Shown here piece by piece: positions 1,211 to 32,518 of a stretch of DNA of 32,595 bases (the stretch's first letter is position 1; every line of letters begins with the position of its first letter). Source of the DNA: an uncultured Akkermansia sp. (lineage in GTDB: Bacteria; Verrucomicrobiota; Verrucomicrobiia; Verrucomicrobiales; Akkermansiaceae); contig CANRJD010000016.1 in the NCBI GenBank assembly GCA_947630815.1, positions 1-32,595 of the forward strand. The letters run 5' to 3'. The position numbers were made by a program, and so were the translations under genes. Under the pieces are notes generated by a model. It made no database searches, was not told where the DNA came from, and saw only the letters and a program-made list of their open reading frames with translations.

Positions 1211-2147
1211 ACAAGAAAGAATACCAACTACAACGCGCTGCCGAAGCGGGTGATGTCGATGCGATGGTTAACCTCGAACGCTACTATTGGAGGAACGTGA
1301 AAAGGAACAAGGAGTACGGTGCACTTGCCCGCAAGTGGGCTCTGCGTGCGGCGCGAAAAGGCCACATGGCGGGAATGAGCGATATGGGAGACTTCCACTA
1401 CTATGGATTCTGTGGCGTGAAACGTTCCTACAGGAAGGGCTTTTTGTGGTACTCCAAAGCGGCAGAATTAGGCTACGCCTATGCCATGAACTCCCTCTCC
1501 ATTTGCTATCAGGAAGGGAAAGGCACCAAGCGCGATATCAAAAAGGGACTGGAGTGGACGAGGAAGGCTGCCGCGTTGGGAGATGCCGAGGGGCAGAACA
1601 TGTTGGGCGTTTTTCTCTTCGCCGGGCGTGGCACGCGCAGGGACAAGAAAGGAGCTATGGAAATGTTCCGCGCGGCTGCCAAGCAGGGGGAGGCGTGCGG
1701 CTTGTGTAACTACGCAGACTGCTTCCGTTCCGGCATTACCGTGACTAAGAATTACAAAAAAGCGCTTTATTACTACCGCAAATCAGTTCAAAAAGGGAAT
1801 CTGTATTCTAAGTACCGAATCGGCGAAATGACCATGAAGGGCATGGGGGTAAAAAAGATGTCAAGAAGGGGTACAAGCTCATTGAAGAGGCCGCTCGCGC
1901 GGGGTGCCGTGAAGCTCAGTTTAATATGTATGAATTTTATCGTGACGAGAACTCCTGCATCCCCAGATGCAACATGGGTTGTGCTATCCGTTGGCTGAAA
2001 CGCTCAGCTGAACAAGAGGATGCCGAGGCTTGCAAAGAGCTTGCCCGCTGCTACAGGGAAGGGATAGGCGTCGATAAAGACACGCGTCTCGCTCGTAAAT
2101 GGGAGCGCATCGCTGCAGGAATTCTCTTCCCGGGAGGAGAGAAATGA
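1207..2147 (+). pseudogene. Sel1-like repeat protein split by a -1 frame change at an A6 run (1207-1998 then 1926-2147 frames)
   Basis: Near-identical to 3698-4609, but has GTA AAA AAG ATG (A6) where the intact copy has GTA AAA AAA GAT (A7). May be a pseudogene, a frameshifted gene or a sequencing error. Confidence 0.8.
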
Positions 2148-2251
2148 TCACTTCATCCAAATGCGTTTGCTGTGTAGCCTCTGCGCGGCGGCGAAGCCGG
2201 TTGTGCGGGATTTGGCAGGCGTGGAAGAAGACTTCCGGGCGGAGTTTTGGT

Positions 2252-3130
2252 CTATGATATGGCCAAGGGGCGCATCGTGCGGAACTTTCCTCGGGTATAA
2301 GTAATGCTGTTTCTACGAGGGAGAAAGCGTGAAATGTCAATGAGCGTCGCGCAAAGACGCAAGCAGAATAGCCATGGGTGAGGAGCCCAGGCCAATCGGT
2401 AGGGAGATGGGTCATCATAGGGACCCGAATCATATTCAACGGAGTTGTATTGGAAAAGGTTGTACTCGATGAAATCCACGAGCTCTGCCGGGAAAATGTG
2501 GTTTCCATCTCCAATGGAATCATACGTTTTTTCTCCGACTGTCACGATGCTGTTAACATAACCACACCAGTCATAATCCATCCGCAATTGTGCCGAATAG
2601 TGGTCATCGGACTCTTCTCCTTCACGGATCAGTTGCTTCATAAACGGAGTCATGGGAGCGTCATCTGGTAGGCAGCAAATACTTCCTTCTTTCAACGGTA
2701 CCAAACCATGCACGATGACCCTGTGTCGAGAGTTGGCATCGAGGTATTGAGTAAGTGCCAATTCGCAGTGAATGCCCATACCGCAGTAGGTGACGTGGGC
2801 CTTGTTGACAAGGAGGTCGGCGAGATCTGCGGCGATGGAAACGCCGTAGGCCTCCAGCCCGTAGGTGTCCGGTTCGGTGTCGTAGAAAGTTTCCAGCGCG
2901 TGATTGAAAGCGCTTTGCCAGTAATCGAACCGCTGCACAAGCCAATCGGAAATGCCGGGAACTTCTGTAATGCCAATTTTGTCCCCATCCCGCGTGAGCA
3001 ACACTCCTTCATCACTGGTTGAGAGAGCGTACGTAGGCGCCCCACTTGGCACTTGCAGCACCGGGTGATCCAGGCGGTGATTGACGTAATCGGCCAGCCG
3101 CACGGGATTGAATAATTGCGGGAAGTTCAT
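2252..3130 (-). CDS. Hypothetical protein, no family recognised
   Basis: Long ORF with protein-like composition (MNFPQLFNPVRLADYVNHRLDHPVLQVPSG...); likely start is the internal Met rather than 3157. Confidence 0.6.
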   Translation of the reverse strand: MNFPQLFNPVRLADYVNHRLDHPVLQVPSGAPTYALSTSDEGVLLTRDGDKIGITEVPGISDWLVQRFDYWQSAFNHALETFYDTEPDTYGLEAYGVSIAADLADLLVNKAHVTYCGMGIHCELALTQYLDANSRHRVIVHGLVPLKEGSICCLPDDAPMTPFMKQLIREGEESDDHYSAQLRMDYDWCGYVNSIVTVGEKTYDSIGDGNHIFPAELVDFIEYNLFQYNSVEYDSGPYDDPSPYRLAWAPHPWLFCLRLCATLIDISRFLPRRNSITYTRGKFRTMRPLAIS

Positions 3131-3201
3131 AGCCGGTGAGTGTAACGTGCTCCGCATCGCAAAGCAAGTACATTTTTTTGAGCGTTATGAAACAAAGGGA
3201 G

Positions 3202-3230
3202 TTGACGCGTGTGTTACTGTGTGTTAGATT
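3202..3230 (+). promoter_or_regulatory. Candidate sigma70-type promoter TTGACG-N17-TAGATT upstream of SLR gene 3335
   Basis: Hexamers read by eye; 17-bp spacer; precedes an AGGAGG Shine-Dalgarno and ATG at 3335. Confidence 0.45.
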
Positions 3231-3334
3231 GACATCAATCCCGGTGGGCAAGTGGAACCGAAAAAAGAGACATAAGCTCCTGCAGGCAGGGAAAGTATCG
3301 GCTCGTTTGGCACCGGATCAAGGAGGGTTTTACG

Positions 3335-4609
3335 ATGTCGAATAATCTTGAAGGAACAGAAAGGATGCAGCTGGTGCAAAAGGCGGTTGCCGGGGATAAG
3401 CAGGCGCAGCTCGATCTTGCACGCACGTACCGGGATGTCGATATTGTCCGGGAAAACAGGAGACAGGCTCTCAAATGGTATCTCATGGCTGCGGAGAGTG
3501 GAGATCCGGAATGCATGTACCAATTAGCCGATTATTGTTGGTCCCTTGACGAAGATTATGGGGAGGAAGGCTATGGGACCATGGCAAGAAAATGGATGAA
3601 ACGCGCCGCTGAGGCGGGCAGTGTTGAGGCAATGCGCGACCTTACTCTGTATTATCATGAAAAAGGCCGCGGAACTGAGGAGAGAAAGTGGCTGGAACGC
3701 GCCGCCGAAGCGGGTGATACCGATGCGATGGTTAACCTCGAACGCTACTATTGGAAGAACGTGAAAAAGAACAAGGAGTATGGAGCGCTTGCCCGCAAGT
3801 GGGCTCTGCGTGCGGCGCGAAAAGGCCACATGGCGGGAATGAGCGACATGGGAGACTTCCACTACTACGGGTTCTGTGGCGTGAAACGATCCTACAGGAA
3901 GGGCTATTTGTGGTACTCCAAAGCGGCAGAATTAGGCTACGCCTATGCCATGAACTCCCTCTCCATTTGCTATCAGGAAGGGAAAGGCACCAAGCGCGAT
4001 ATCAAAAAGGGACTGGAGTGGACGAGGAAGGCTGCCGCGTTGGGAGATGCCGAGGGGCAGAACATGTTGGGCGTTTTTCTCTTCGCCGGGCGTGGCACGC
4101 GCAGGGACAAGAAAGGAGCTATGGAAATGTTCCGCGCGGCTGCCAAGCAGGGGGAGGCGTGCGGCTTGTGTAACTACGCAGACTGCTTCCGTTCCGGCAT
4201 TACCGTGACTAAGAATTACAAAAAAGCGCTTTATTACTACCGCAAATCAGTTCAAAAAGGGAATCTGTATTCTAAGTACCGAATCGGCGAAATGACCATG
4301 AAGGGCATGGGGGTAAAAAAAGATGTCAAGAAGGGGTACAAGCTCATTGAAGAGGCTGCTCGCGCAGGGTGCCGTGAAGCTCAGTTTAGTATGTATGAAT
4401 TTTATCGTGACGGGAACCCCTGCATCCCCAGACGCAACATGGGTTGTGCTATCCGTTGGCTGAAACGCTCAGCTGAACAAGAGGACGCCGAGGCTTGCGA
4501 AGAGCTTGCCCGCTGCTACAGGGAAGGGATAGGCGTCGATAAAGATACGCGTCTCGCTCGTAAATGGGAGCGTATCGCTGCAGGAATTCTTTTCCCGGGA
4601 ACAGACTGA
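3335..4609 (+). CDS. Sel1-like repeat protein (intact copy of the duplicated pair)
   Basis: ATG preceded by AGGAGG; many Sel1 repeats; C-terminal two thirds nearly identical to 1207-2147. Confidence 0.9.
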   Translation: MSNNLEGTERMQLVQKAVAGDKQAQLDLARTYRDVDIVRENRRQALKWYLMAAESGDPECMYQLADYCWSLDEDYGEEGYGTMARKWMKRAAEAGSVEAMRDLTLYYHEKGRGTEERKWLERAAEAGDTDAMVNLERYYWKNVKKNKEYGALARKWALRAARKGHMAGMSDMGDFHYYGFCGVKRSYRKGYLWYSKAAELGYAYAMNSLSICYQEGKGTKRDIKKGLEWTRKAAALGDAEGQNMLGVFLFAGRGTRRDKKGAMEMFRAAAKQGEACGLCNYADCFRSGITVTKNYKKALYYYRKSVQKGNLYSKYRIGEMTMKGMGVKKDVKKGYKLIEEAARAGCREAQFSMYEFYRDGNPCIPRRNMGCAIRWLKRSAEQEDAEACEELARCYREGIGVDKDTRLARKWERIAAGILFPGTD

Positions 4610-4721
4610 TAGGCGCCTATTATTGCTACCCTTTCTACGCGCTACGATGGCAAGGGTATTGCGTCTGCCAAGCAGGATCTGGAGTGTGGATTGCAAGGAT
4701 AAATGCAACAGATGAGAGAAA

Positions 4722-7094
4722 ATGATGATCGAAAAGAAAAGTCTAAATGAAGCTCTCTTCCGGGAAGTCGCGGATCCCAAAACATCCGTGGAAGAAGTCC
4801 GGACGCTCATTGGCGTAGGGGCGAATGTCAATGCTGCGGACGGGGATGGGAAGACCGCGCTTATGTGGGCGGCGCGTGAGGGACACGGGGAGATTTTCAA
4901 ACTCCTGCTGGAGGTTGGGGCGGATGTCCATGCCACGGACAAGGATGGGCGAACGGTGCTTATGGCGGCGGCGCAGAGAGGATGCGTGGAGGTTGTGAAA
5001 CTCTTGCTGGAGGCTGGGGTAGATGTCCATGCTGCGGACATGTATGGAAACACCGCGCTTATGGTGGCGGCGCGCAAGGGACGCGTGGAGGTTGTGAAAC
5101 TCCTGCTGGAGGCTGGGGCGGATGTCCATGCTGCGACCAAGGATGGATGGAGTGCACTTACGTTGGCGGCGCATGAGGGACGCGCGAAGGTTGCTAAACT
5201 CCTGCTGGGGGTAGGTGCGGATGTCCATGCGGTGACCAAGTATGGAAATACCGCGCTTACATTGGCGGCGCAGAAGGGGCATTCGGAGATTGTCAAACTA
5301 TTGCTGGATGCCGGTGCGAATGTCCATGTTGCGGACACGGATGGGAGGACTGCGCTTATGAAGGCGGCGCAGGAGGGGCACTTGGAGATTGTCAAACTCC
5401 TGCTGGATGCCGGTGCGAATATCCATGCCGCGGACGAGAAGGGGTGGACTGCGTTTACGTTGGCGGTGCAGGAGGGACGCGTGGAGACTGTCAAACTCCT
5501 GCTGGAGGCCGGGGCAGATATCGATGCACGTACTGCGCTTACATTGGCAACCCGAGAGGAGCATTTGGAGATTGTCAAGCTGCTGCTAGAGGCAGGTGTG
5601 GATGTTCATGCCGCAGGCAAGGGTGAAAATACTGCGCCTACGTTGACGAGGGCGCTAGGTCAGGCTCTCTTCCATGAAATCATGGCTCCCGAAACCTCCA
5701 TAGAAAAAGTCCGATCGTTCATTAATGATGGGGCGGATGTGAATATGCAGATTGGGGGCAACGTTTCATGTGGCACAGCGCTTATAGCGGCGGTGGATGG
5801 CGGAAAGGAGGAGATTGTCAAGCTGCTGCTGGAGGCTGGTGCAGATGTCCATGCTGTGGGCAAGTATGGGCAGACTGCGCTTACGTGGGCAGCGTGTATG
5901 GGATCCGTGGAGATGGTCAAAATCCTGCTGGGAGCCGGGGCAGATATCCAGGCTGCGACTGAGGATGGGAGGACTGTGCTCATATGTGCGGCGCGTGAGG
6001 GAAACGGGGAGACTGTCACGCTACTCCTGGATGCCGGGGCGGATGTCAATGCTGCGACCAAAGGTGGATGGACTGCGCTTATGGAGGCGGCACTGTGGGG
6101 ACCCGTGGAGATTGTCAAACTCCTGCTGGATGCCGGGGCGGATGTCGATGCTGCGGACGAGGATGGAGATACCGCGCTTATGGAGGCGGCGCAGGAGGGG
6201 CATTTGGAGATTGTCAAGCTGCTGCTGGATGCCGGGGCGAATGTCCATGCTGCAGACGAGGATGGATATACTCCGCTTATATGGGCGGCGCGTAAGGGAC
6301 ATCTGGAGATTGCCAAACTCCTGCTGGATGCCGGGGCGGATGTGAATGTTGCAGATAAGGGGGGATGGAGTGCACATATGTGGGCGGCGAGGGGACACGA
6401 GGAGATTGTCAAACTCCTGCAGGAGGCTGGTGCGGATGTCCATGCTGCGGACGTGTTTGGGCAGACTGCGTTTATGGTGGCGGCGTATGGGGGACACGTG
6501 GGGACTGTCAAGCTCCTGCTGGAGGCTGGTGCAGACGTCCATGCCGCGGACAAGGATGGGCGAACGGCGCTTATGGCGGCGGCGCAGGAGGGGCATTTGG
6601 AGATTGTCAAACTACTGCTGGAGGCCGGTGCAGACGTCCATGCCACGGACAAGGATGGGCGTACGGTGCTTATGGCGGCGGCGCAGGAGTGGTATTTGGA
6701 GATGGAGATTGTCAAACTGCTGCTGGAGGCCGGTGCAGATGTCCATGCTACGGACAAGGATGGGCGTACGGTGCTTATGGCGACGGCGGAGAAGAAGGAA
6801 GATGCGGCGATTGTCAAACTCCTGCTGGAGGCCGGTGTGGATGTTCACGCCACGGATAAGGAGGGGAGAACGGCGCTTATGGTGGCAGCGCAGGAGGGTC
6901 ATTTGGAGATTGTCAAACTGCTGCTGGAGGCTGGTGCAGATTTCCCTGATGCAGACAATGAGAGGACATGGGGCAACCGCCTTGAGGCAACTGCAAAGCA
7001 AGCGCGGTTGCGTCCTGCAACGGGCTTGCAACGGGACTGCAACGGGGCTGCCGATGCTCGACCTACGAACAACGCCTACGGCAAACGCTTTTGA
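4722..7094 (+). CDS. Large ankyrin-repeat protein (790 aa)
   Basis: More than 20 tandem 33-aa units of DG.TALM.AA..GH.EIVKLLLEAGADVHAAD type. Confidence 0.95.
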   Translation: MMIEKKSLNEALFREVADPKTSVEEVRTLIGVGANVNAADGDGKTALMWAAREGHGEIFKLLLEVGADVHATDKDGRTVLMAAAQRGCVEVVKLLLEAGVDVHAADMYGNTALMVAARKGRVEVVKLLLEAGADVHAATKDGWSALTLAAHEGRAKVAKLLLGVGADVHAVTKYGNTALTLAAQKGHSEIVKLLLDAGANVHVADTDGRTALMKAAQEGHLEIVKLLLDAGANIHAADEKGWTAFTLAVQEGRVETVKLLLEAGADIDARTALTLATREEHLEIVKLLLEAGVDVHAAGKGENTAPTLTRALGQALFHEIMAPETSIEKVRSFINDGADVNMQIGGNVSCGTALIAAVDGGKEEIVKLLLEAGADVHAVGKYGQTALTWAACMGSVEMVKILLGAGADIQAATEDGRTVLICAAREGNGETVTLLLDAGADVNAATKGGWTALMEAALWGPVEIVKLLLDAGADVDAADEDGDTALMEAAQEGHLEIVKLLLDAGANVHAADEDGYTPLIWAARKGHLEIAKLLLDAGADVNVADKGGWSAHMWAARGHEEIVKLLQEAGADVHAADVFGQTAFMVAAYGGHVGTVKLLLEAGADVHAADKDGRTALMAAAQEGHLEIVKLLLEAGADVHATDKDGRTVLMAAAQEWYLEMEIVKLLLEAGADVHATDKDGRTVLMATAEKKEDAAIVKLLLEAGVDVHATDKEGRTALMVAAQEGHLEIVKLLLEAGADFPDADNERTWGNRLEATAKQARLRPATGLQRDCNGAADARPTNNAYGKRF

Positions 7095-7110
7095 GCGAAA
7101 TCAGGCAATA

Positions 7111-7155
7111 CGTGGGGCGACTCCGAAGAAACCAGGGCAGGGTGGTGCCGGTGAG
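7111..7155 (+). repeat. 45-bp intergenic repeat (cgtggggcgactccgaagaaaccagggcagggtggtgccggtgag)
   Basis: One mismatch to the reverse complement of 15573-15617; partial copy at 13281-13304. Confidence 0.9.
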
Positions 7156-7190
7156 GCGACGTACGTTTTTCAATTATCCTTTGGACGTTC

Positions 7191-8609
7191 TTATCGCAAG
7201 ATCACCTGCCTCAGCTTTTCGCACGATTTTAACAGATCCTCGATTTTTGCAACGATGCGCTTTTGCTCGGCAAGAGGGGGAAGAGGTAAATACAACTGAA
7301 CAAGAAGGGAGAAATGTCTGGCATATCCTCTATTGCGCATTGTTTTTGCACAAAAAAGCAGTAAAATATAACAGTATTTAGCGTCAATTAGTAGAGATTT
7401 GAGTAGTTTAGCCCCATCCGCTCCAACAGCAAAGGGAAAATCTAAGAATTTCACATTTCTGGTATGGTCCCCAAAAAGAAGAATGGGAGGATCATCGAGA
7501 ACTTGATCAAAGAGATCTGTGTATCCATCGATGAATTTTGCTCCCTGACCTACAACCGGATACTTGCCTGTTTTTTTTATTTCCTTACTTTGACTTTGAT
7601 CATATTTTGAGTCAACTCCATACGAAATCTCATCCAGCCTTACCCACATCCAACTTTCCGGAATATCAAAGGGCTTTCCCTCTTCCGTAATTTCCGGCAA
7701 AGTTTTTTCCTTTTTGAGCTTCCCTGCCTTGATAAGTTGCTGCTTTTTCGCTCGGATCTGCTGGTAGAGTTCTGCCGCTGTGCCTTCTTCGGGGTGCTGT
7801 TCGACTAACTTGCCCTGGACGGCTAACTGCAGGATGGACTTTTGGATCTCGTCAGGGAATCGCTTGTTTAATGTGTCCAGACGGCTCCACGCTTGTTCGT
7901 AGCGGTCAATGTATGGCAACAGTTCCTCGATTTTTGCAACGATGCGCCTTTGCTCGGCAAGAGGGGGAAGAGGTAGAAGAAGAGAAACAAATTTCGATTT
8001 ATTCAGAATCGATATAGTGGCTGCACTTGAACTCTCTATCTCTCGCTGTTTTACTTCCTCACTTTTCAGGAAGTAAAGTAGCATTTTCATATTGATGTGA
8101 TCATGAGGGAAAATTGCATTTATTTGTTGATTACAAATGCCTTCTTTAGAAATAATAGAACACTTCCCTATGCTCCCTATACAACTTACCAAGATGCTGT
8201 TGCATGGCAAAAGAGGTGTGCACGAAGCACCTTTGATGCTTACATATTCTTTTGATGCATGAGTGTAGCACAAGTTTTTGTTTATATCTGCCGGTTTGTA
8301 AAAGCAAATTTCCTTAGGTTCAAAGTTGTCGCGTTGCTGAGTCGATGGTGTTTTCCCCGTTATAACTCGCACAATATCTCCCAATCTTACCCACATCCAA
8401 CTCTCCGGAATATCAAAGGGCATTTCTTCTTCCGTTATTTCCGGTAAAGGTTTTTCCTTTTTGAGCTTCCCTGCTTTGATAAGTTGCTGCTTTTTCGTTT
8501 GGATCTGCTGGTAGAGTTCTGCCGCCGTGCCTTCCTCGGGGCGCTGTTCGACTAGCTTGCCCTGGATGGCTAACTGTAAGATGCTTTTTTTCAACTCCTG
8601 TGGGGTCAT
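7191..8609 (-). CDS. hsdS: Type I restriction-modification specificity subunit S
   Basis: Two TRD halves with conserved IPESWMWVRLGDI and LPPLAEQ.RIVAKIE motifs; 4-bp ATGA overlap with hsdM. Confidence 0.95.
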   Translation of the reverse strand: MTPQELKKSILQLAIQGKLVEQRPEEGTAAELYQQIQTKKQQLIKAGKLKKEKPLPEITEEEMPFDIPESWMWVRLGDIVRVITGKTPSTQQRDNFEPKEICFYKPADINKNLCYTHASKEYVSIKGASCTPLLPCNSILVSCIGSIGKCSIISKEGICNQQINAIFPHDHINMKMLLYFLKSEEVKQREIESSSAATISILNKSKFVSLLLPLPPLAEQRRIVAKIEELLPYIDRYEQAWSRLDTLNKRFPDEIQKSILQLAVQGKLVEQHPEEGTAAELYQQIRAKKQQLIKAGKLKKEKTLPEITEEGKPFDIPESWMWVRLDEISYGVDSKYDQSQSKEIKKTGKYPVVGQGAKFIDGYTDLFDQVLDDPPILLFGDHTRNVKFLDFPFAVGADGAKLLKSLLIDAKYCYILLLFCAKTMRNRGYARHFSLLVQLYLPLPPLAEQKRIVAKIEDLLKSCEKLRQVILR

Positions 8610-10060
8610 GATTTCGTTCCTTCCAGTAGGGTTGTAATCTCCGCCAGTACCTGCTCAATTTCCGCATTCAGAGAGGCACGCTCGCTTTCGTATTGCTGGA
8701 CCAGCTCCCACGGCTCTAAGATTTCCTCTTCCTTTCGAGGGAAAGGGCAGCATTTATCAAAATTATAGTTGAGAGCTTGCAATTCCTCTGTCGTGTAAAA
8801 GCGCGCTTTATCGAAACCATCGACGACGATGGGCTGCTTGTTTTTCCACCATGCACGAACAGGGTCAAAATGCTTGTCCTGCATGGGTCTTGCTTTGGTG
8901 AAACTCTTGATTCCCTCCGGATAATCCAACCTGTAGAACCACACGCCGGCGGAGGCAACACCTTTTTGGAAAAACAGCAGATTGGTGTGCACGCTGGCAT
9001 AGGGTTTGAATATCTGGGGCAAGCGAATGATTGTGTGAAGGCCGTATTCTTTCAGCAATTTCTCCTTTAGCGCCTTTTTTACCGGCTCCGTCCCAAACAT
9101 GAACCCATCGGGGAGGACGATGCCGCAACGCCCACGATCTTTCAGGAGACGCATAATGAGCGCTAAAAACAGATCGGCGGTCTCAGAAGTTTTAAACTCC
9201 GCTGGAAAGTTTTGTTTGATAGCTGCGTCCTCTGAACCTCTGAATGGAGGATTTGTGACGATCACATCCACACGATCTTTTGCTGAGTAATCGGAAAGAG
9301 GGCGGGCAAGAGAGTTCTGGTGGCGGATTTGCGGCACGTCTATGTCGTGCAGGATCAGGTTCGTCATTGCCAACAGGTGCGGCAGAGGTTTTTTCTCCCA
9401 GCCAAAGATTGTTGTTTGCTGGGTGCTCAGCTCCTCCGTTGAGATCACGCTACCCAAATGCGCGATGGTGCTGGCGAGGAAGCCACCCGTGCCGCAGGCG
9501 GGATCTAACACGGATTCTCCAGGCTTGGGATCGACCATTTCCACAACGAAGTTCGTAACGGGGCGGGGCGTGTAAAATTCACCCACTTTTCCTGCGCTTT
9601 GCAGATCCTTGAGCATCCCTTCGTACAACTCATTAAAGGTATGCTCCTTTCGCGCATCGATAAAATCAACTTGCTCATTGATGCGATTGATAAGCTGGCG
9701 GAGATTGACGCCGGACTTCATGGAGTTATTGATGTCCTCAAAGACCCCGCGCACCACGAATTTACGTAAGTCTCCATCAGAAGTATCCAGTTTTTTGAGA
9801 GCTTCGAATAGCCTGCTTACAAAAGCTATCAGGTCATCACCGGTGATGCCTTCTTTATCCGCCGCCCAATCACGCCAACGCAACCCCTTTGGAATCACGC
9901 CGTGGTAGTCGGAGTGAAATTCCCAGCTCATTTCCTTGGCATCAAAGGCTTTCAGGAACAAAAGCCAGGTGATTTGCTCGATATACTGCGCATCGCCATT
10001 CAGGCCGGCATCTTTGCGCATAATATCTTCCAGCGATTTTACCAAAGCGGACATTGCCAT
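8606..10060 (-). CDS. hsdM: Type I restriction-modification DNA (adenine-N6) methyltransferase subunit M
   Basis: Motif I VLDPACGTGGFL, NPPF catalytic motif, N-terminal HsdM-type helical region. Confidence 0.95.
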   Translation of the reverse strand: MAMSALVKSLEDIMRKDAGLNGDAQYIEQITWLLFLKAFDAKEMSWEFHSDYHGVIPKGLRWRDWAADKEGITGDDLIAFVSRLFEALKKLDTSDGDLRKFVVRGVFEDINNSMKSGVNLRQLINRINEQVDFIDARKEHTFNELYEGMLKDLQSAGKVGEFYTPRPVTNFVVEMVDPKPGESVLDPACGTGGFLASTIAHLGSVISTEELSTQQTTIFGWEKKPLPHLLAMTNLILHDIDVPQIRHQNSLARPLSDYSAKDRVDVIVTNPPFRGSEDAAIKQNFPAEFKTSETADLFLALIMRLLKDRGRCGIVLPDGFMFGTEPVKKALKEKLLKEYGLHTIIRLPQIFKPYASVHTNLLFFQKGVASAGVWFYRLDYPEGIKSFTKARPMQDKHFDPVRAWWKNKQPIVVDGFDKARFYTTEELQALNYNFDKCCPFPRKEEEILEPWELVQQYESERASLNAEIEQVLAEITTLLEGTKS

Positions 10061-10517
10061 AACCAGTCCTTTCTATTTTATCAACTTACGCAGCGTATTG
10101 TTTGATTTCTTCGCGGTACTTTTCAAGCTTCTCCTTCTCAATTCATCACGCACAAATTCCGAAATCGACACCTCCAAAATTCAACGGAACCCTGCTCCAT
10201 TGCCGGCATCGGACAAACACCCCATCCTTGCTTCTTCGAAAAATCCCCGGAGCATTGATATGCGAGAGAAAGGACAATACAGAGTGTATCACTAAAAACC
10301 AGCCCCTCTCTGGACCTTCACAAACGTCAAATACAACCTTCCCCCAAAAATCTTCCCCCTGTTGCAGCGCCTCATTCGCAATATCCTCGCGCTGCGTGTA
10401 AATTTCGTCCCCTTTGGCTACCCCTGCTTCGCGGAGGGGTTTGTTATTACCCCCCCCACCGCTCTATATGTTGATTTTCAACGTCTTGCATAGCTAGATG
10501 TTGTATAATGTGTCCAT

Positions 10518-10546
10518 ATTATATCTCTTTTTGCTGGACGTATCAA
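10518..10546 (-). promoter_or_regulatory. Candidate strong promoter TTGATA-N17-TATAAT reading leftward toward hsdM-hsdS
   Basis: Reverse complement of 10541-10546 is TTGATA, of 10518-10523 is TATAAT, with a 17-bp spacer. Confidence 0.65.
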
Positions 10547-11008
10547 GTTTTATTTAAGTAAGTTCTACGCTCGCTTCACATCCGTCTCAAGAAAAGATAA
10601 AGATTGGAACACTTCAGGTGCTTGAAGCTCCAGCCCTTCACCTTGCCATACGGGAGCACCCCCTGACAAGGAAACGGGGAACGACTTCATTCCATCACAC
10701 CGAGACGCCTCTGTCAACGAAAAAAGCGGGGCAATATTTACGCTTTTGGCCGAATTGCCTCCGAGCCCTCGGGGGCTTTCACGGCTTTGCTCAATCATCA
10801 AAGGTTTGAGCTTCTTGCTGGCTTACCTCCTTCATCCATGGGAAACGCATGAGGAATGGGGTGGATGAGCCCAGTGAAGATTTTATTGGGACAAGTGTGC
10901 TCTCTAAAAGTTTTTTGCCTTTAGACTGTACATCTGTTTTGAAAAAAGATATACTCGCCCTCATACGGCGGAGAAACAGAGCCGGAGCCTCAAACCCTTA
11001 TTTTCACC

Positions 11009-11947
11009 GTGAAAGAAAATCACACCTTCAAAAGCGCGATTCGAAAAGTCGTTCGTGGGATGTCGGCGGTGGCGCTATGTGCCCTATTCGTTACAGCGTC
11101 GGCGGAAGGAGGGACGCCCGAATTCTACAAGGAAGCGGAAGCCGGGCAGGCATGGGCGCAGTATGAAGTTGGTGAGTGCTATTATCATGGCAGGGGAGTG
11201 AGTAAGGACTACGCGGAGGCCGTGAAATGGTATCGCAAGGCAGCGGATCAGGGGAATGCGCAGGCGCAGTTTAGTCTTGGCTGGTGCTATGCGGACGGCA
11301 AGGGGGTGAGTAGGAATTACGCGGAGGCAGTGAAGTGGTACCGCAAGGCGGCGGAGCAGGGGGATGCGAAAGCGCAGTGCGGTCTTGGCTTGTGTTATGA
11401 GACCGGCGAAGGAGTGAGCAAGGATTACGCAGAGGCGGTAAAGTGGTACCTCTTGTCAGCGGATCAGGGGAATGCGAATGCGCAGTTTAGGCTTGGCTGC
11501 TGCTACAGGAATGGCAGTGGAGAGAGCAAAGACTTCGTCGCGGAGGCAGTGAAGTGGTTTCGCAAGGCGGCGGAGCAGGGGGATGCGAATGCGCAGTTTG
11601 ATCTTGGCTGGTGCTATGAGTGCGGCAGAGGAGTGGGCAAGGACATGACAGAGGCAGTGAAGTGGTACCGCAAGGCGGCGGAACAGGGGCATGCGGATGC
11701 ACAGTATACCCTTGGCAATTGCTATTACGACTGCGAGGGAGTGAGCAAGGACATAACAGAGGCAGTGAAGTGGTGGCGCTTGGCGGCGGAGCAGGGGGAT
11801 GCGGATGCGCAGTTTCGCCTTGGCGTATGCTATGCGAACGGCTGGGGAGTGAGCGAGGACATGACGGAGGCGGTGAAGTGGTGGCAGAAGGCAGCGGAGC
11901 AGGGGAACGAGGCGGCGGCGGATAATCTGCGGAAGTTAAAGTTTTAA
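11009..11947 (+). CDS. Secreted Sel1-like repeat protein
   Basis: GTG start; N-terminal signal peptide (VVRGMSAVALCALFVTASAEG) followed by seven or so Sel1 repeats. Confidence 0.9.
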   Translation: MKENHTFKSAIRKVVRGMSAVALCALFVTASAEGGTPEFYKEAEAGQAWAQYEVGECYYHGRGVSKDYAEAVKWYRKAADQGNAQAQFSLGWCYADGKGVSRNYAEAVKWYRKAAEQGDAKAQCGLGLCYETGEGVSKDYAEAVKWYLLSADQGNANAQFRLGCCYRNGSGESKDFVAEAVKWFRKAAEQGDANAQFDLGWCYECGRGVGKDMTEAVKWYRKAAEQGHADAQYTLGNCYYDCEGVSKDITEAVKWWRLAAEQGDADAQFRLGVCYANGWGVSEDMTEAVKWWQKAAEQGNEAAADNLRKLKF

Positions 11948-11968
11948 CCAATCAACGAGACAAAGCAG

Positions 11969-12601
11969 ATGAAAGCGAAACGAATCGCGATGATGCTGGG
12001 AATGGCGGTGGCGCTGAGTGGGTGCGAAAGCGGATCATTGCCGAAGTACTACCACTCGATGAACAACCCGAACATCAGTGTGAGTAACCCGGGATGGCGG
12101 GTGCAACGGACCGGACAAGGCTATGAGCTGACCGCCTGGGGGAGGCAGCTTGTAGCGGAGGTGGATCCCGCGGCGTATGAAAGCTGGAGCGACGCGATGT
12201 TCTCGCACCTCAAGACGTGTAAGCGAGGGCTTGAGGAGCAGCAGACTTTGCTCTCTGCACAGGGACGGCAGGATTACGGGATGGTGTGCGCGAAGCTGAG
12301 CCAGGTGCCCACGACGCCGGTGCCCTACGCGGGGAACTCCTACGGCGCGCCTACCATGGATGATGCTGAACTGGTGCACCAAGTAGCAGGCGGTGGCTAT
12401 GAGCTGCAGCCCTGGCTGCGGATGTGCGCGCAGAGTCTCACGGCGCGTCAGGTGGCGGATACGAGCACATATTACCCTGCGGAGGGAGCCATGATCCACG
12501 CGCTGTATGCCTTGCAAAAGCATGCGGAGGCGCTTACGCCGCAAGGGGTGAAAGATTTTGACCTGCTCAAGGATCGCCTGCGCTATGTTGAGTTTGGCTA
12601 A
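11969..12601 (+). CDS. Hypothetical lipoprotein
   Basis: MKAKRIAMMLGMAVALSGCES: positively charged N-terminus, hydrophobic core and LSGC lipobox; directly downstream of the secreted SLR gene. Confidence 0.75.
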   Translation: MKAKRIAMMLGMAVALSGCESGSLPKYYHSMNNPNISVSNPGWRVQRTGQGYELTAWGRQLVAEVDPAAYESWSDAMFSHLKTCKRGLEEQQTLLSAQGRQDYGMVCAKLSQVPTTPVPYAGNSYGAPTMDDAELVHQVAGGGYELQPWLRMCAQSLTARQVADTSTYYPAEGAMIHALYALQKHAEALTPQGVKDFDLLKDRLRYVEFG

Positions 12602-12663
12602 GAGCTTGGTACGGCGTAACCTTTCCTAAACAGTCAACAAACCAACTCACAACCGCATAGCAT

Positions 12664-13032
12664 ATGACAAAAAGACCGGAAAAATAAACGGTTAAGCTCT
12701 TCAGGGCAATGGTGTGCGGCGGTGGCAACATTGCTTGCCGGCGCAGCTCTGGTCACGACTCCACCAAGCAACGCGGCTACCGTTTACCAAAGCAGCTCGC
12801 AGGTTGCTGAAACCTACCGGCTGGCAAGAGCACTGCGGAAGGACATGGCGGAGACGGTGAAGCGGTACCGCAAGGCGGCGGAGCAGGGGCATGCGGGGGC
12901 ACAGTACAACCTAGGCGAGTACTATGCGAACGGCCAGGGCGTGAGCAAGGATATAGCAGAGGCAAGAAGATGGTACCAAAAGCCGCCGATCAGGGGCATG
13001 AAGGTGCCAAGAAGGCCCTGCAGCAACCGTAG
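12664..13032 (+). pseudogene. Sel1-like repeat gene with two probable single-base indels
   Basis: Removing one A in ACAAAAAGACC (about 12669-12673) gives MTKDRKNKRLSSSGQWCAAVATLLAGAAL...; adding one G near 12979 gives WYQKAADQGHEGAKKALQQP*. Confidence 0.65.
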
Positions 13033-13214
13033 GTTGCTGCTTATGTACGATTTACGATGTACGATGTACGATTTGGAAAGTTCGCGCGCTTTGCGCGGGA
13101 ATTTGGCGAAGCTGGGGCGAACGGGATGTAATGGAGCTGTGCGCGGGAATGGCTAGAAGGGGACGGGAGAGGGACGCCTAGCGGCGCCCACGTATGATGT
13201 AGGATGTACGATGT

Positions 13215-13278
13215 ACAACACGCACGACGGCTGTAAGTGCGTATGGACAGCGCGGATGCGCTGCCCCGCAGGGGCGAA
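13215..13278 (+). repeat. Left arm of 64-bp inverted repeat flanking ankyrin gene 2
   Basis: acaacacgcacgacggctgtaagtgcgtatggacagcgcgg...ggggcgaa matches the reverse complement of 15708-15771 with one mismatch. Confidence 0.93.
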
Positions 13279-13733
13279 CCGGCAGGGTGGTGCCGGTGAG
13301 TCAATTTGAAAAGCTCGCGCGCGTTGCGCGGGGAAGCGAAGCCGGGGCGGACGGGATGTGATGGAACTGCTCGCGGTCGTAGTTAGAAAGGGGCGGTGGC
13401 GCCTCGCGGCGCCTATGTACGATTGCAACGGGCTTGCAGCCACATTTCGTCCCATGAAAAAACGACCCATTTTGGCGGCATGGAATTTTGAAAGCCACTC
13501 AACCCGGGATCAAAGAGATAGAAAAAGCTCGTGCAGCAACACGCTCGGCTCAATCCTATTGAGCTTAATAGCAAATCAGAAGAACGATTGATGGAACTCT
13601 ACGAATCCTCTCACAAAAGCCTTGCAAATCCTGACGAAAACGCTATGCTGTTGGAGGGCCGTTCACTTTGAGGCATGATGCACCTCGCTTCTCATCAAAA
13701 CAATACCAAACACCTCTACCCCTCCCCACGCAC

Positions 13734-15341
13734 ATGATGGTCGAAAAGAAAAGTCTAGATGAAGCTCTCTTCCGGAAAGTCGCGGATCCCAAAACGTCCG
13801 TGGAAGAAGTCCGGGCGCTCATTCGTGCAGGGGCGGATGTCCATGCTGCGGACAAGGAGGGGTGGACTGCGCTTACGTTAGCGGCGGAAAAGGGACATGT
13901 GGAGGTCGTGAAACTCCTGTTGGATGCCGGTGCGGATGTCAATGTTGCGACCAAGGGTGGACGAACTGCGCTTGTGCGGGCGGCGGGGTGTGGACGCGTG
14001 GAGGTTGTCAAACTTCTGCTGGAGGCCGGGGCGAATGTTAATGTTGCGACCAAGGGTGGGCGGACTGTGCTTACGTGGGCGGCGCGGTTGGGGCACGCGG
14101 AGATCGTCAAACTGCTGCTGGAGGCTGGTGCAGATGTCCATGCCACGGACAAGGATGGGCGAACGGCGCTTATGAAGGCGGCGCAGGAGGGGCATTTGGA
14201 GATTGTCAAACTGCTGCTGGAGGTTGGGGCAGATGTCCATGCCACGGACAGGAAGGGGAGGACTGCGCTTACGTGGGCGGCGCAGGAGGGGCATTTGGAG
14301 ATTGTCAAACTGCTGCTGGAGGCTGGCGCAGATGTCCATACCACGGACAAGAAAGGGAGGACTGCGCTTACGTGGGCGGTGCAGTATGGACACGAAGAGG
14401 TCGTGAAACTCATGCTGGAGACCGGTGCGAATGCCCGTGCTGCGGATAAGACCGGAAATACCGCGCTCGCGTGGGCGGCGCAGAGAGGGCACGTGGAGAT
14501 TGCGAAACATCTGCTAGATGCCGGGGCGGATGCCAATGCCGCGACCGAGATTGGATGGACTGCGCTCATGAGGGCGGCGCAGGAGGGGCGCGTGGAAATT
14601 GTCAAACTGCTGCTGGAGGCTGGGGCGGATGTTCGTGCTGCGACCAAGGATGGATGGACTGCGCTTGTGCGGGCGGCGGGGTGTGGACGCGTGGAGGTTG
14701 TCAAACTGCTGCTGGATGCCGGGGCGAATGTTAATGTTGCGACCAAGGGGGGGTGGACTGTGCTTATGTGGGCGGCGAAGGAGGGATACGAGGAGATTGT
14801 GAAACTTCTGCTAGAGGGAGGAGCTGATGCCAATGCTGCGACCAAGGATGGGTGGACTGCGCTTACGATGGCGGCGTATGGGGGACACGTGGGGACTGTC
14901 AAGCTCCTGCTGGAGGCTGGTGTGGACGCCAATGCTGCGACCAAGGATGAGTGGACTGCGCTCACGTGGGCGGCGTATGGGGGACACGTGGGAACTGTCA
15001 AGCTCCTGCTGGAGGCCGGGGCGGACGCCAATGCCGCGACCAAGGATGGATGGACTGCGCTTACGTTGGCGACGCATGGGGGACACGTGGAGATTGCGAA
15101 ACTTCTGCTGGAGGCCGGGGCGGATGCCAATACCGCGACCAAGGATGGGTGGACTGCGCTTATGGCGGCGACGCGCCACGTGGAAATGGTGAAACTCATG
15201 CTGGAGGCCGGGGCAGATGCTAATGCCGCGGACAAGGAGGGGAAGACTGCGTTCACGTGGGCGGCGCAGTGTGGGCGCATGGAGGTTGTCAAACTCCTGC
15301 TGAGGGCCGGGGCGGATTTCCCTGATGCGAACAAGAAGTAA
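13734..15341 (+). CDS. Ankyrin-repeat protein 2, paralogue of 4722-7094
   Basis: MMVEKKSLDEALFRKVADPKTSVEEVRALI... is nearly identical to the ankyrin 1 N-terminus; tandem 33-aa repeats; the track start at 13668 is probably too early. Confidence 0.93.
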   Translation: MMVEKKSLDEALFRKVADPKTSVEEVRALIRAGADVHAADKEGWTALTLAAEKGHVEVVKLLLDAGADVNVATKGGRTALVRAAGCGRVEVVKLLLEAGANVNVATKGGRTVLTWAARLGHAEIVKLLLEAGADVHATDKDGRTALMKAAQEGHLEIVKLLLEVGADVHATDRKGRTALTWAAQEGHLEIVKLLLEAGADVHTTDKKGRTALTWAVQYGHEEVVKLMLETGANARAADKTGNTALAWAAQRGHVEIAKHLLDAGADANAATEIGWTALMRAAQEGRVEIVKLLLEAGADVRAATKDGWTALVRAAGCGRVEVVKLLLDAGANVNVATKGGWTVLMWAAKEGYEEIVKLLLEGGADANAATKDGWTALTMAAYGGHVGTVKLLLEAGVDANAATKDEWTALTWAAYGGHVGTVKLLLEAGADANAATKDGWTALTLATHGGHVEIAKLLLEAGADANTATKDGWTALMAATRHVEMVKLMLEAGADANAADKEGKTAFTWAAQCGRMEVVKLLLRAGADFPDANKK

Positions 15342-28286: not shown

Positions 28287-29397
28287 AGATACGGTACATC
28301 GCTGGTTTACGCGTATATCCAGTCCTGTAGCGCGTGTGCTGGTGGTGTACTTTCTTACTCTCAGCGCTCTTGCTGCATTGGGTAGTTATGTGATTACACT
28401 GAATCTTGTGCGACATGAACTCATTGTCCGTGGAGCAGACACTGTCGCCGCAGCTATTTCTTCCCAGAATCGTGATCGGCCGGTTTTTATCCCTACATAC
28501 GATGCCATAGACAAAGCATTGCAAGCCGAGTCGTACGCTCTACAAGCGCATGGGATTGTTTCTTTGCCAAATGGGCAGAGTGTGCAGGTGTATTCCTACG
28601 ATTTTTCGCGCATGCGGCAGATGGCTCCGCTGTTGGCACCAGATGGGGGACCCACGCTGCTGCAGGCGGAGGATAACCAGGTGCTGCCCCCTGGTCCCGG
28701 GGATGTGATGATTGATAAAGTGCGTGTACCGGTGATGGTTCGCAATTTACCACCGAATCACACTCTACATCGTATTGTGCGCTCCGGTGCTCTTGTGGTC
28801 AGTCAAGATCAACTTCCGCCCCAAATAAAGGCCAACAAGAGCACCCTCACCAGTCTTCTCATCCGCGTGCGTAATTTGGATTCTTCAGAATCCATCCTTC
28901 GCGTGGAACGCTATATAGAGATGCTTAAACGCTATGAAAAAGCTCTTGGCTCGGTTATTTCGGCTGGATCCATACTGAGTCGCATGGACGACGTGCTGAA
29001 CAAGCAAGTGCAGTGTCGTGTCGCATTTTGCTTGGGTATTAGTGCTATTGTGGGAATTCTGCTTACAGCCTTGGCAGGTATGGAATACCGCCAGAATGAG
29101 TACATATACACCCTTATGAAGAGTTTTGGGATTCACCCGCTGTTACTTGTAGGCTCGTTTATCGTGGAGAACACGGTGATTGTAGCCGCCTCATTTGCTG
29201 CGGCCATCGGTACTTTTATGTATTTCCAGGACATCATCGTCAACCAAATTCTGAAGTTGGGCAATTACTCATTGACCTTTAACGATATTCTACCGGAAAT
29301 ATACCTGATCTCTTACACTCTGCTTGGCTGCGTTTTTGTGTCGTCTATTCCCATTTTTGTCGCAGCTAACCGTGAAATAGGTCGTGTGCTCAAGTGA
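28249..29397 (+). CDS. ABC transporter permease (FtsX/MacB-like)
   Basis: N-terminal TM, large periplasmic region, three C-terminal TM segments; follows the ATPase. Confidence 0.82.
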   Translation: MISLILTVLYLAKDTVHRWFTRISSPVARVLVVYFLTLSALAALGSYVITLNLVRHELIVRGADTVAAAISSQNRDRPVFIPTYDAIDKALQAESYALQAHGIVSLPNGQSVQVYSYDFSRMRQMAPLLAPDGGPTLLQAEDNQVLPPGPGDVMIDKVRVPVMVRNLPPNHTLHRIVRSGALVVSQDQLPPQIKANKSTLTSLLIRVRNLDSSESILRVERYIEMLKRYEKALGSVISAGSILSRMDDVLNKQVQCRVAFCLGISAIVGILLTALAGMEYRQNEYIYTLMKSFGIHPLLLVGSFIVENTVIVAASFAAAIGTFMYFQDIIVNQILKLGNYSLTFNDILPEIYLISYTLLGCVFVSSIPIFVAANREIGRVLK

Positions 29398-30406
29398 ACC
29401 GCCGTATAAAATTGGCGGACCAGAAGAGGGCAGCATGGTCTCGCGTGACTCCCTTCATGCTGAGGTACCGGGTGCGCAGGAGTTGGGCAGAGCGGTGTCC
29501 CATTTCCTCTTGCAATCGCTCCAAGTCGTGCCAGCGCTTCAGATGATAGCTGGCGAAGGTGTGGCGCAGAGCATCTTGTTGCCAGTGGCGGATGCCCGCA
29601 TCGTTGCGCAGGCGCGACCATCGGTGGCACCAGTCCGGTGGACAAATACTGCCGCTTGCCGGAGAGGAGGAAGAAAAGAGAGAGAGCCACGTGAGAAGCG
29701 CCGAATGCATGGTGATATGGCGGCAGCCACCAGTTTTCGTATGACGCGGTTGCAGGGAGATGACGCGCTCGTCCCAATCCAGGTCAGCCCAATCTAGACG
29801 CATAACTTCTGCCGGGCGTACACCAGCCCACAGCATGATACCCAAAGCTGGCATACATCGAGAGTGACGGGGTTCCCGCGCTGTACGTAGCAGGGCGAGC
29901 AGTTGTTCCCAGGCAAGGGGGAGAATCTCCGTCTCGTGCAGCTCCGGGCGCGAGATCGTATCCACTGGATTGGTAGTGCACCAGCCATGTTTGATGCCAC
30001 AAGCAAAGATAGAGTGCAGAACAGCGCGTCCTTTCACAAATTGGTGTGGGGTGGTAAACAGACCGTCGAGCAGATTTTTGCAGTCTGTGGGGCTAATGTA
30101 GCGCAATTTCCGGTGGGCAAGGGGGGATTGAAGCATGCGAGTTGTGATGGAACGCAGCTCATCAAGAGTGCGTTGGCGGCGGTTGCTTCGCTCACGCAGG
30201 GAAACGACTACGGCCTCCTGAAAATCCACACTGCGTTCGGATTCGTATATGGCTTGCTTGCCCATCATAATTACATCTCGGCAGCGGTTGAGCAATTCAA
30301 CTCCACGCAACTTACATGAACTAACCCGTTCGATAAGTTCGCGCCCCAGACGTTGCGCATCTTCTGCATCTAAACCATAGCATGTAGCCCAACTTACGGA
30401 GGCCAA
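29390..30406 (-). CDS. Tyrosine recombinase/integrase; ORF as assembled begins at TTG with no upstream ATG
   Basis: Catalytic pattern GVRPAEVMRL (R), HTKTGGCRHI, ALRHTFASYHL (HxxR region), MGHRSAQLLRTRYLSM (GH...Y). Confidence 0.88.
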   Translation of the reverse strand: MASVSWATCYGLDAEDAQRLGRELIERVSSCKLRGVELLNRCRDVIMMGKQAIYESERSVDFQEAVVVSLRERSNRRQRTLDELRSITTRMLQSPLAHRKLRYISPTDCKNLLDGLFTTPHQFVKGRAVLHSIFACGIKHGWCTTNPVDTISRPELHETEILPLAWEQLLALLRTAREPRHSRCMPALGIMLWAGVRPAEVMRLDWADLDWDERVISLQPRHTKTGGCRHITMHSALLTWLSLFSSSSPASGSICPPDWCHRWSRLRNDAGIRHWQQDALRHTFASYHLKRWHDLERLQEEMGHRSAQLLRTRYLSMKGVTRDHAALFWSANFIRRFT

Positions 30407-30422
30407 TTCTTCGTTTGTTTGA

Positions 30423-30438
30423 GGATTGCTAATCCGTA
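30423..30438 (+). repeat. Left 16-bp inverted repeat (IRL) of the putative invertible segment
   Basis: ggattgctaatccgta; exact reverse complement at 30596-30611. Confidence 0.95.
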
Positions 30439-30595
30439 TGTCAAGTTTTTCAATGAAGAAATGTATATTTCTCTATTTATTAAGCTGTTAGTGAACGGAC
30501 AGCTTTTAATTTGTTTCTCACCGCAGGATGCAGAGTGTATCTCTTCCTCAAATATTATACTTTACAGTCAATGAGTAACGAGAATTACAGACTCT
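30439..30595. mobile_element. Putative invertible DNA segment (157 bp)
   Basis: Bounded by perfect 16-bp inverted repeats and next to a tyrosine recombinase gene. Confidence 0.78.
30482..30505. terminator. Hairpin inside the putative invertible segment, possibly a bidirectional terminator
   Basis: AAGCTGT-N10-ACAGCTT followed by TTTAATTT. Confidence 0.5.
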
Positions 30596-30611
30596 TACGG
30601 ATTAGCAATCC
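30596..30611 (-). repeat. Right 16-bp inverted repeat (IRR)
   Basis: tacggattagcaatcc; exact reverse complement of 30423-30438. Confidence 0.95.
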
Positions 30612-30613
30612 GC

Positions 30614-30619
30614 TATAAT
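30614..30619 (+). promoter_or_regulatory. TATAAT -10 element just outside IRR, lacking a good -35 in the assembled orientation
   Basis: Position 18 bp from the IRR boundary reads gactct as assembled; would be TTGACA after inversion. Confidence 0.65.
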
Positions 30620-30768
30620 ATGCGGCAGCGGAGGAGAATTTTACCCGTCCGAGCGGGGGAAATAGCTAGGAAACGAGAGTCTCATTCATGGTGCTGACGT
30701 GGAAGCGATATCCCGTGATTTACCGGGTAGATTCTCCTTCGTTCCATCTAACCCAAACTGAACCACCT

Positions 30769-31008
30769 ATGCCAAAAGTAATATGTTTTCGTGCCACAGA
30801 CCTGATGTGCTCGGCCATAGATCGCATCATGGATGAGCGCCTCATTGACCGTACGACCGTCATCAAGCTTGCCCTTTATCACTTCGACACATACATGCGC
30901 CGCGGTGAAACACGTAACATGAATCTCTACGAAATTGTGGACGATTTAGAGAAGAGCGCAACCCCCGAGCAAACGCGTTTCGCGCCATTTAGCGTGACAC
31001 GGAGGTAA
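30769..31008 (+). CDS. Small ribbon-helix-helix (CopG-like) DNA-binding protein candidate
   Basis: MPKVICFRATDLMCSAIDRIMDERLIDRTTVIKLALYHFDTYMRR: short beta strand plus two-helix pattern; alternative start at 30688. Confidence 0.6.
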   Translation: MPKVICFRATDLMCSAIDRIMDERLIDRTTVIKLALYHFDTYMRRGETRNMNLYEIVDDLEKSATPEQTRFAPFSVTRR

Positions 31009-31053: not shown

Positions 31054-32463
31054 TTATAGCTCAGGTTCCCAAGAATCTTTGACAATAAGCTGGTCGTACA
31101 GTTGTTTGGCCTTATCACCCATATCCATAGAGGCGAGGCGCAGGTAGCTGCGCGCCATGGAGGCATCCGCAGGAAGTCCTTCACCCCCCTTCGCTGTGAT
31201 ATAGGCCAAGTACACATAAGCCTGGGGAGCGCCTGCCGCGGCAGCATCCGAAAGGAGCTGTGATGCCTTGCGTGCATCAGGTTTTACATGCTTGCCAGAG
31301 AAGTACTCGGCAGCCAGTATGATGGACGCTTGGGGGTGTCCCACCTTTGCGGCATCTTCCAGCAGCTTAATGCCGGCAGCAGTATCTTGCTTTACTCCTT
31401 TGCCATTCAGAAGCATGTAAGCGCGAGCCGTGGCTAGCGCCACCGTGTTGCTCAGTTTGGGGTGACTGAAGTAAAAATATGCTTTTTGCGGATCCTCAGG
31501 CAGGCCGAGTTGACCCTTCAAATAGCCGTAACCAAGAGCCATGCATGAGCGCAGATGACCGAGCGCAGCAGCAGTTTTCAACAAAATAATCGCTCGCTTG
31601 GGGTCGGGTTGTACTCCTGCTTCACGGACCGCGGCGTTCTCTCCCTTAACATCCATCAGACCAGAAGCCATTACGAAATAGGCCTCTGGGTTATGGCGGC
31701 GTACAGCCTCCTCCAGCAGCGTGCGGCTCTCGACAGGTTTTTTTGCGGAGGCCACGGCGGAGAGTGCAAAGTATGCATCTGAGCTTCCTGCTTCAGCCGC
31801 TTTTTTGAGCCATTCCATCTTTTGGGCAGGATCGGAAGCTAGGTTGCACAGGCGGAACATGACGTAATGGTTGCCGCGTTTGACTTCAGATTCGACCTCA
31901 GGCTTGGTGCGCGAGCTGAAAAATTCCACGCGCCCAGTGCTTATCAGCCAGTGGGCTCGAGCCATGAAGTCACCAGTTTTACAGGCATCCATGAGCATTT
32001 TATTGGCCGCAGCCTCATCCTTTGGCACCCCGATGCCCTGACGAAGGCACATGCTGGCATCTAGCATAGAGGGAACAAACCCTTTGGCAGCCAGTTTGGC
32101 CATACGCTGGTAAGTGGCACGTACTTCTGGTGAAAGAAGTTTTTCTACGGGAGTTTGGGATAGAGCCACGTCGGTGATCCAATGCTCGGCAGCGATATTC
32201 CCCTGCTTTGCTGCGGCTTTCATCCATGATTCCACGGCCTTTTCATCACCATCAGTGGCTTCCAGTACACAGAGGATGGCAGCACCGAAGTCGGGGCTGT
32301 TGTCCTTCACTTGCTTTTGTAAGGCTTCGTAAAATTCATTGTATCTGGGATTGGAGGTGACAGCATTTGATGGCGACGCAGCCGGGGGTTCTGCGATCAC
32401 GGGGAGCGAACCTAGAGCAATGATCGGAATAATGATACTGAATCGAAGATAGTTCTTAAGCAT
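31054..32463 (-). CDS. Secreted Sel1-like repeat protein
   Basis: Likely start MLKNYLRFSIIIPIIALGSLPVIAEPP (signal peptide); multiple A..G....A...L...Y..G.GV.KD..AA repeats. Confidence 0.87.
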   Translation of the reverse strand: MLKNYLRFSIIIPIIALGSLPVIAEPPAASPSNAVTSNPRYNEFYEALQKQVKDNSPDFGAAILCVLEATDGDEKAVESWMKAAAKQGNIAAEHWITDVALSQTPVEKLLSPEVRATYQRMAKLAAKGFVPSMLDASMCLRQGIGVPKDEAAANKMLMDACKTGDFMARAHWLISTGRVEFFSSRTKPEVESEVKRGNHYVMFRLCNLASDPAQKMEWLKKAAEAGSSDAYFALSAVASAKKPVESRTLLEEAVRRHNPEAYFVMASGLMDVKGENAAVREAGVQPDPKRAIILLKTAAALGHLRSCMALGYGYLKGQLGLPEDPQKAYFYFSHPKLSNTVALATARAYMLLNGKGVKQDTAAGIKLLEDAAKVGHPQASIILAAEYFSGKHVKPDARKASQLLSDAAAAGAPQAYVYLAYITAKGGEGLPADASMARSYLRLASMDMGDKAKQLYDQLIVKDSWEPEL

Positions 32464-32518
32464 AGCAGATGCCACTATTCTACGCTTGTCATGAAGTCTT
32501 GGCAAGCGGCATTTCGTT

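Follow-up and report, generated by a model that had tools for sequence, protein, structure and literature searches.

A 157-nt DNA segment in an uncultured gut Akkermansia sp. very probably acts as a phase-variable switch, in which a tyrosine recombinase would invert the segment and thereby assemble a split promoter that transcribes a small RHH-like DNA-binding protein. The segment lies in a contig of 32,595 nucleotides, the whole of which is referred to here as the window. In the proposed mechanism, the recombinase (29390-30406) would recombine two inverted sites of the CGGATT-N3-AATCC type and turn over the DNA between them. Of the two halves of a sigma-70 type promoter, the segment would bring the -35 alone, with the -10 fixed past the right repeat, and the recombination site itself would form the promoter spacer. 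The orientation found in the assembly would be OFF, with TTGACA pointing at the recombinase gene and no -10 behind it. After a flip, TTGACA-N18-TATAAT would transcribe the RHH-like gene (ON), the product of which would relay the state of the switch to other genes. For the source copy, both the inversion and the firing of the assembled promoter are steps that we infer from the sequence.

The segment (30439-30595) is enclosed by a perfect inverted repeat with two 16-nt arms that are 100% complementary. The left arm (IRL, 30423-30438, plus strand; GGATTGCTAATCCGTA) contains a GGATT-N3-AATCCG core, and the right arm (IRR, 30596-30611, minus strand; TACGGATTAGCAATCC) makes up the greater part of the 18 nt between the hexamers once the promoter is assembled. 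Both carry the CGGATT..AATCCG core of Akkermansia invertons (GGATTGCTAATCCG / CGGATTAGCAATCC), the outermost C of IRL being changed to A. When up to two mismatches were allowed, these two arms were the only copies in the 2.09 Mb genome assembly, of which the window is one of 130 contigs. The initial annotation had placed TTGACA on the minus strand at 30439-30444, TATAAT at 30614-30619 and GACTCT at 30590-30595, and all of these coordinates were confirmed. Positions 30439-30444 read TGTCAA, the reverse complement of TTGACA; this putative -35 half lies within the segment, abuts the inner edge of IRL and, as assembled, reads outward across it. The putative -10 half TATAAT is located on the plus strand outside the segment, 2 bases past IRR, so that the hexamers do not both lie between the repeats, as they do in complete-promoter invertons.

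In silico inversion of 30439-30595 moves TTGACA to 30590-30595 on the plus strand and reproduces the predicted TTGACA-N18-TATAAT at 30590-30619, which has IRR as its spacer, matches the consensus at 12/12 positions and faces the RHH-like gene. The top score obtained by shuffling the segment and its flank 20,000 times was 10/12, and the best plus-strand site within 30401-30740 as assembled reaches 8/12. A generic sigma-70 scanner found no sigma-70-like site at the locus in the assembled orientation. In the source genome, TTGACN-TAnnnT is enriched over the backwards pattern at a spacing of 17 (156 vs 44) and not at 18 (40 vs 40), and the spacer at this locus is therefore slightly long, its hexamers being perfect. 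From the position of the -10, transcription would be expected to start near 30626 on the plus strand, giving a predicted and poorly conserved 5' leader of about 143 nt (30626-30768). The flipped junction, TTGACATACGGATTAGCAATCCGCTATAAT, had no match in IMG/VR. Besides the promoter half, two blocks of the segment (30478-30497 and 30560-30579, which are ATCAATCTATTAGTCAACG-like and TTTACAATCAATGAATAA-like in orthologues) appear to be conserved and are perhaps accessory binding sites or a portion of the recombinase promoter. A terminator-like hairpin inside the segment (30482-30505) is absent from the more distant orthologues aligned and was treated as chance.

The recombinase gene lies on the minus strand, divergent from the RHH-like gene, and its product matches the Phage_integrase family (PF00589; Pfam E 2.7e-16, 60.3 bits vs a cutoff of 27.1). 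The motifs GVRPAE, TKTGG, LRHTFA, MGH and RYL align across the family and represent an R-K-H-R-H-Y-type active site, with Asp at the box II His position in every member aligned. This protein is likely the invertase of the adjoining segment. A group of recombinases that are about 52% identical to it (L125 / L224 (G000:C32), L006, L007, L123 and L124) have no detectable upstream inverted repeat of this kind, and possibly act on distant sites or are defunct.

Comparison with orthologous loci indicates which parts of the intergenic DNA are maintained. Among named sequences, MAG contigs of uncultured Akkermansia (isolates 'Lapin') are the nearest relatives. L033-L037, the recombinases of which are 98-72% identical, retain the inverted repeat, TTGACA, TATA[A/G]T and the small gene, and most of their other intergenic DNA has diverged; TTGACA sits at the same place in all of them, and the -10 is either TATAAT or TATAGT. 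Relative to L033, the closest relative, the hexamers and both arms show 0 changes, compared with 10 differences in the segment outside the -35 (151 nt) and 8 in the leader. Close relatives of the source locus also share its 18-nt spacer, with hexamers that are near-perfect.

The same arrangement recurs beside related recombinases. In the upstream regions of about 90 of them, the best inverted repeat with arms about 100-240 nt apart was selected blind to TTGAC or any other promoter motif, resulting in 50 distinct loci. TTGAC lies against an arm in 37 of these (at the recombinase-proximal arm in 34 and at the distal arm in 3), and 36 of the 50 would assemble TTGACN-N17/18-TAnnnT, compared with 0.06 on average and at most 2 upon shuffling of segment and flank. 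Many of the 13 loci without TTGAC have TTGCA- or TTGAA-like variants. At OFF loci with a split promoter, the target side holds the -10 in 34/34 cases and the recombinase side in 0/34; this set was preselected as OFF, with L155, L160 and L171 excluded (no right-spaced -10, or artefacts), and the less selected figure is therefore 36/37. The repeat sequences differ among loci (CGGATTAGGAATCCG, TTCGGAATCCGTAA, CGTATTCATAAGCCG, ATATGATTTCAAATCAT and others), and promoter spacing is thus kept across different recombination sites. Within the genome of the source locus itself, two further loci, L172 and L173, show this layout around different repeats. On these counts, the split-promoter layout at the source locus is not a product of chance.

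Three of the family-test loci, L008, L162 and L179, are in the ON orientation, and the segment of L179 aligns with those of L158/L168 only when reversed (scores 68, 85 vs 18, 19), the recombinase side being unchanged. The initial annotation had proposed a -35 carried on the flipping segment, a -10 fixed outside it and an OFF state as assembled; conservation in the orthologues, the 36/50 recombinase-linked loci, the target-side position of the -10 in 34/34 and these ON-oriented loci all support this proposal. Among RHH-linked loci, 14 are OFF (the source locus and 13 others) and 3 are ON (L193, G072:C10 and L008, the RHH-like gene of which is at G019:C100). OFF strongly predominates among the assembled recombinase-linked loci, and flipping may therefore be rare, or the ON state may be rare, costly or disfavoured. 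Several contigs stop exactly in an inverton arm (L005, L038, L145 and L198), an outcome that can be expected from mixed orientations in a sample and that repeats alone can also produce.

Across the genus, the pattern TTGACN{0,4}GGATTN3AATCC is present in 34 of 77 genomes, with up to 46 occurrences per genome and 0 for the reversed control. In G004, G040 and G041, wherever the partner arm was found, TTGAC is located within the segment. Because of antisense ORFs, assignment of the gene side by ORFs was mostly ambiguous in these three genomes, and a positional test was used instead. At their 51 invertons, TA occurs at 17-nt spacing on 37 of the 102 flanks, compared with 0-11 at other offsets, and is found on exactly one flank in 35 invertons and on both in 1. 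TTGAC faces the TA in 21 of the one-flank invertons and points away from it in 14, and the sixth base of the -10 is often not T. Judged by matching flanks, apparently orthologous invertons of G040 and G041 are oppositely oriented at 3 places (L072/L089, L073/L090 and L077/L095). On balance, we favour the view that invertons of one class occur genus-wide in Akkermansia, with the recombination site serving as the promoter spacer, the -35 brought by the segment and the -10 by the chromosome. A spacing of about 17 nt would be held while the repeats diversify together with the recombinases, and a subset of these invertons would control a small DNA-binding regulator, such that one flip could reset other genes.

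The gene that would be switched at the source locus (30769-31008, plus strand) encodes a putative RHH-like DNA-binding protein of 79 aa (MPKVICFRAT...). The ORF 30688-31008 was ruled out as the start of this protein, as conservation begins at the Met of 30769. With 27 synonymous and 1 nonsynonymous codon changes relative to L034, the gene is evidently under purifying selection. The label 'RHH-like', as given in the initial annotation, is a structural inference: the AlphaFold model (pLDDT 85), in which an extended N-terminus is followed by two helices (11-24 and 28-43), superposes on CopG with TMt 0.77-0.81 and rmsd 1.7-1.8 A, with Foldseek E-values >1. Searches against Pfam and NCBIfam profiles gave no match, nor one to a curated RHH family profile. 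The predicted strand-helix-helix N-terminus may resemble that of CopG/Arc-type RHH repressors and TacA/AtaR-type antitoxins, but the protein differs from these in lacking a profile match and a visible neighbouring toxin gene.

Matches to this small protein, with E up to 0.01, were found in 38 of the 77 genomes, the weaker ones not all with a demonstrated link to an inverton. The RHH-like gene lies beyond IRR in the source locus and in the nearest recombinase subclade. Other members of the recombinase family often have, beyond IRR, a gene for a large protein with an N-terminus such as MKLHLP (surface-protein-like) or a lipoprotein-like gene. The putatively switched gene at the source locus is likely a regulator and not a surface protein. 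At the RHH-linked loci L009, L010 and L013, a long palindrome continues from the right arm and takes in the -10 (AGCATAGCGGATT-N3-AATCCGCTATGCT); it is a possible operator.

Other readings of the locus differ in what the small protein or the repeats would do. A split-promoter inverton might be in place while the RHH-like protein has the switch, more than other genes, as its main target, either as a repressor or as an accessory or directionality factor of the recombinase. We regard this as a tentative possibility, in line with the association of RHH-like genes with the nearest recombinase subclade, the genes switched by more distant recombinases being surface-protein-like or lipoprotein-like, and with the operator-like palindromes spanning the -10 at some RHH-linked IRR sites, although such palindromes serve the recombinase too. 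An ordinary invertible promoter, complete inside the segment and driving the RHH-like gene or the recombinase with the TTGACA/TATAAT pair as a secondary feature, appears improbable. Invertons of the Bacteroides and fimS types do hold the whole promoter inside, and a weak internal 9/12 site, TCGTTA-N16-TATAAT, reads toward the recombinase and on inversion would point at the RHH-like gene; however, this site is lost beyond the closest orthologue, where the two split halves persist with their spacing, and such halves recur with unrelated repeats.

It is very unlikely that the repeats serve a mobile element as attachment or boundary sites, with accidental promoter halves and no switch. The recombinase is integrase-like and its family multicopy, as such an element would have it, but beside many recombinases the sites are inverted, with about 120-170 nt between them, the segments occur in both orientations, and Akkermansia IR elements of the same motif have been published as inverting (PMC13343947). 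A static inverted repeat with hexamers placed by accident could be entertained only when viewing the single locus, and is hardly credible given the shuffle tests and the family-wide recurrence that contradict it.

The split-promoter switch that we propose combines features of several known systems. The invertible promoters of Bacteroides (Mpi/Tsr type) and fimS of E. coli have the complete promoter inside the segment; they share with the source locus a site-specific recombinase, short inverted repeats and, as proposed for the latter, ON/OFF control by promoter inversion, whereas the segment at the source locus holds the -35 half only. At insertion-sequence ends and IS circle junctions, an outward -35 joins a separate -10 across the terminal repeat, which creates a hybrid promoter. 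The two halves on either side of a repeat are common to these and the source locus, but IS hybrid promoters arise by transposition or circularisation, where the source locus would depend on a dedicated recombinase and reversible inversion.

Within the genus, invertons with the IR motif CGGATT..AATCCG have been described in Akkermansia muciniphila (Jiang et al., 2019, as cited in PMC13343947), and the citing paper links an inverton beside cps1 to ON/OFF phase variation of the capsule (PMC13343947). A further study reports an inverton group 138 with the same Akkermansia IR motif, the flipping of which was detected in reads, and an Akkermansia promoter motif found with lower confidence (PMC11892184). 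The motif search described there was confined to the inverton and its repeats, and the lower confidence may be due to a -10 half outside the searched region. The inverton coordinates given in that study, when applied to G040, pointed to no inverted repeat there, and therefore either the assembly is numbered differently or G040 is another strain.

The source locus resembles the CGGATT..AATCCG invertons in genus, IR core and the similar size of the intergenic segments; compared with the available descriptions, it differs in its adjacent recombinase, its RHH-like target and a promoter split across the IR. No description of a split promoter was found in the portions of the Akkermansia inverton literature searched, and the design may already have been noted by Jiang et al. 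(2019). The split promoter offers a concrete way, resolved to single bases, in which Akkermansia invertons could act. It also supplies a rule by which ON and OFF would be predicted from sequence: TTGAC next to one arm and TAnnnT about 17 nt beyond the other.

The window contains several further features. The minus strand carries a type I restriction-like pair at 7191-10060, in which a methylase-like ORF (8606-10060) is joined by a specificity-subunit-like one with two similar halves (7191-8609). Several Sel1-like and ankyrin-like repeat proteins are encoded at 77-15341 and 31054-32505, and the ORFs 1207-1998 and 3335-4609 share near-identical stretches.
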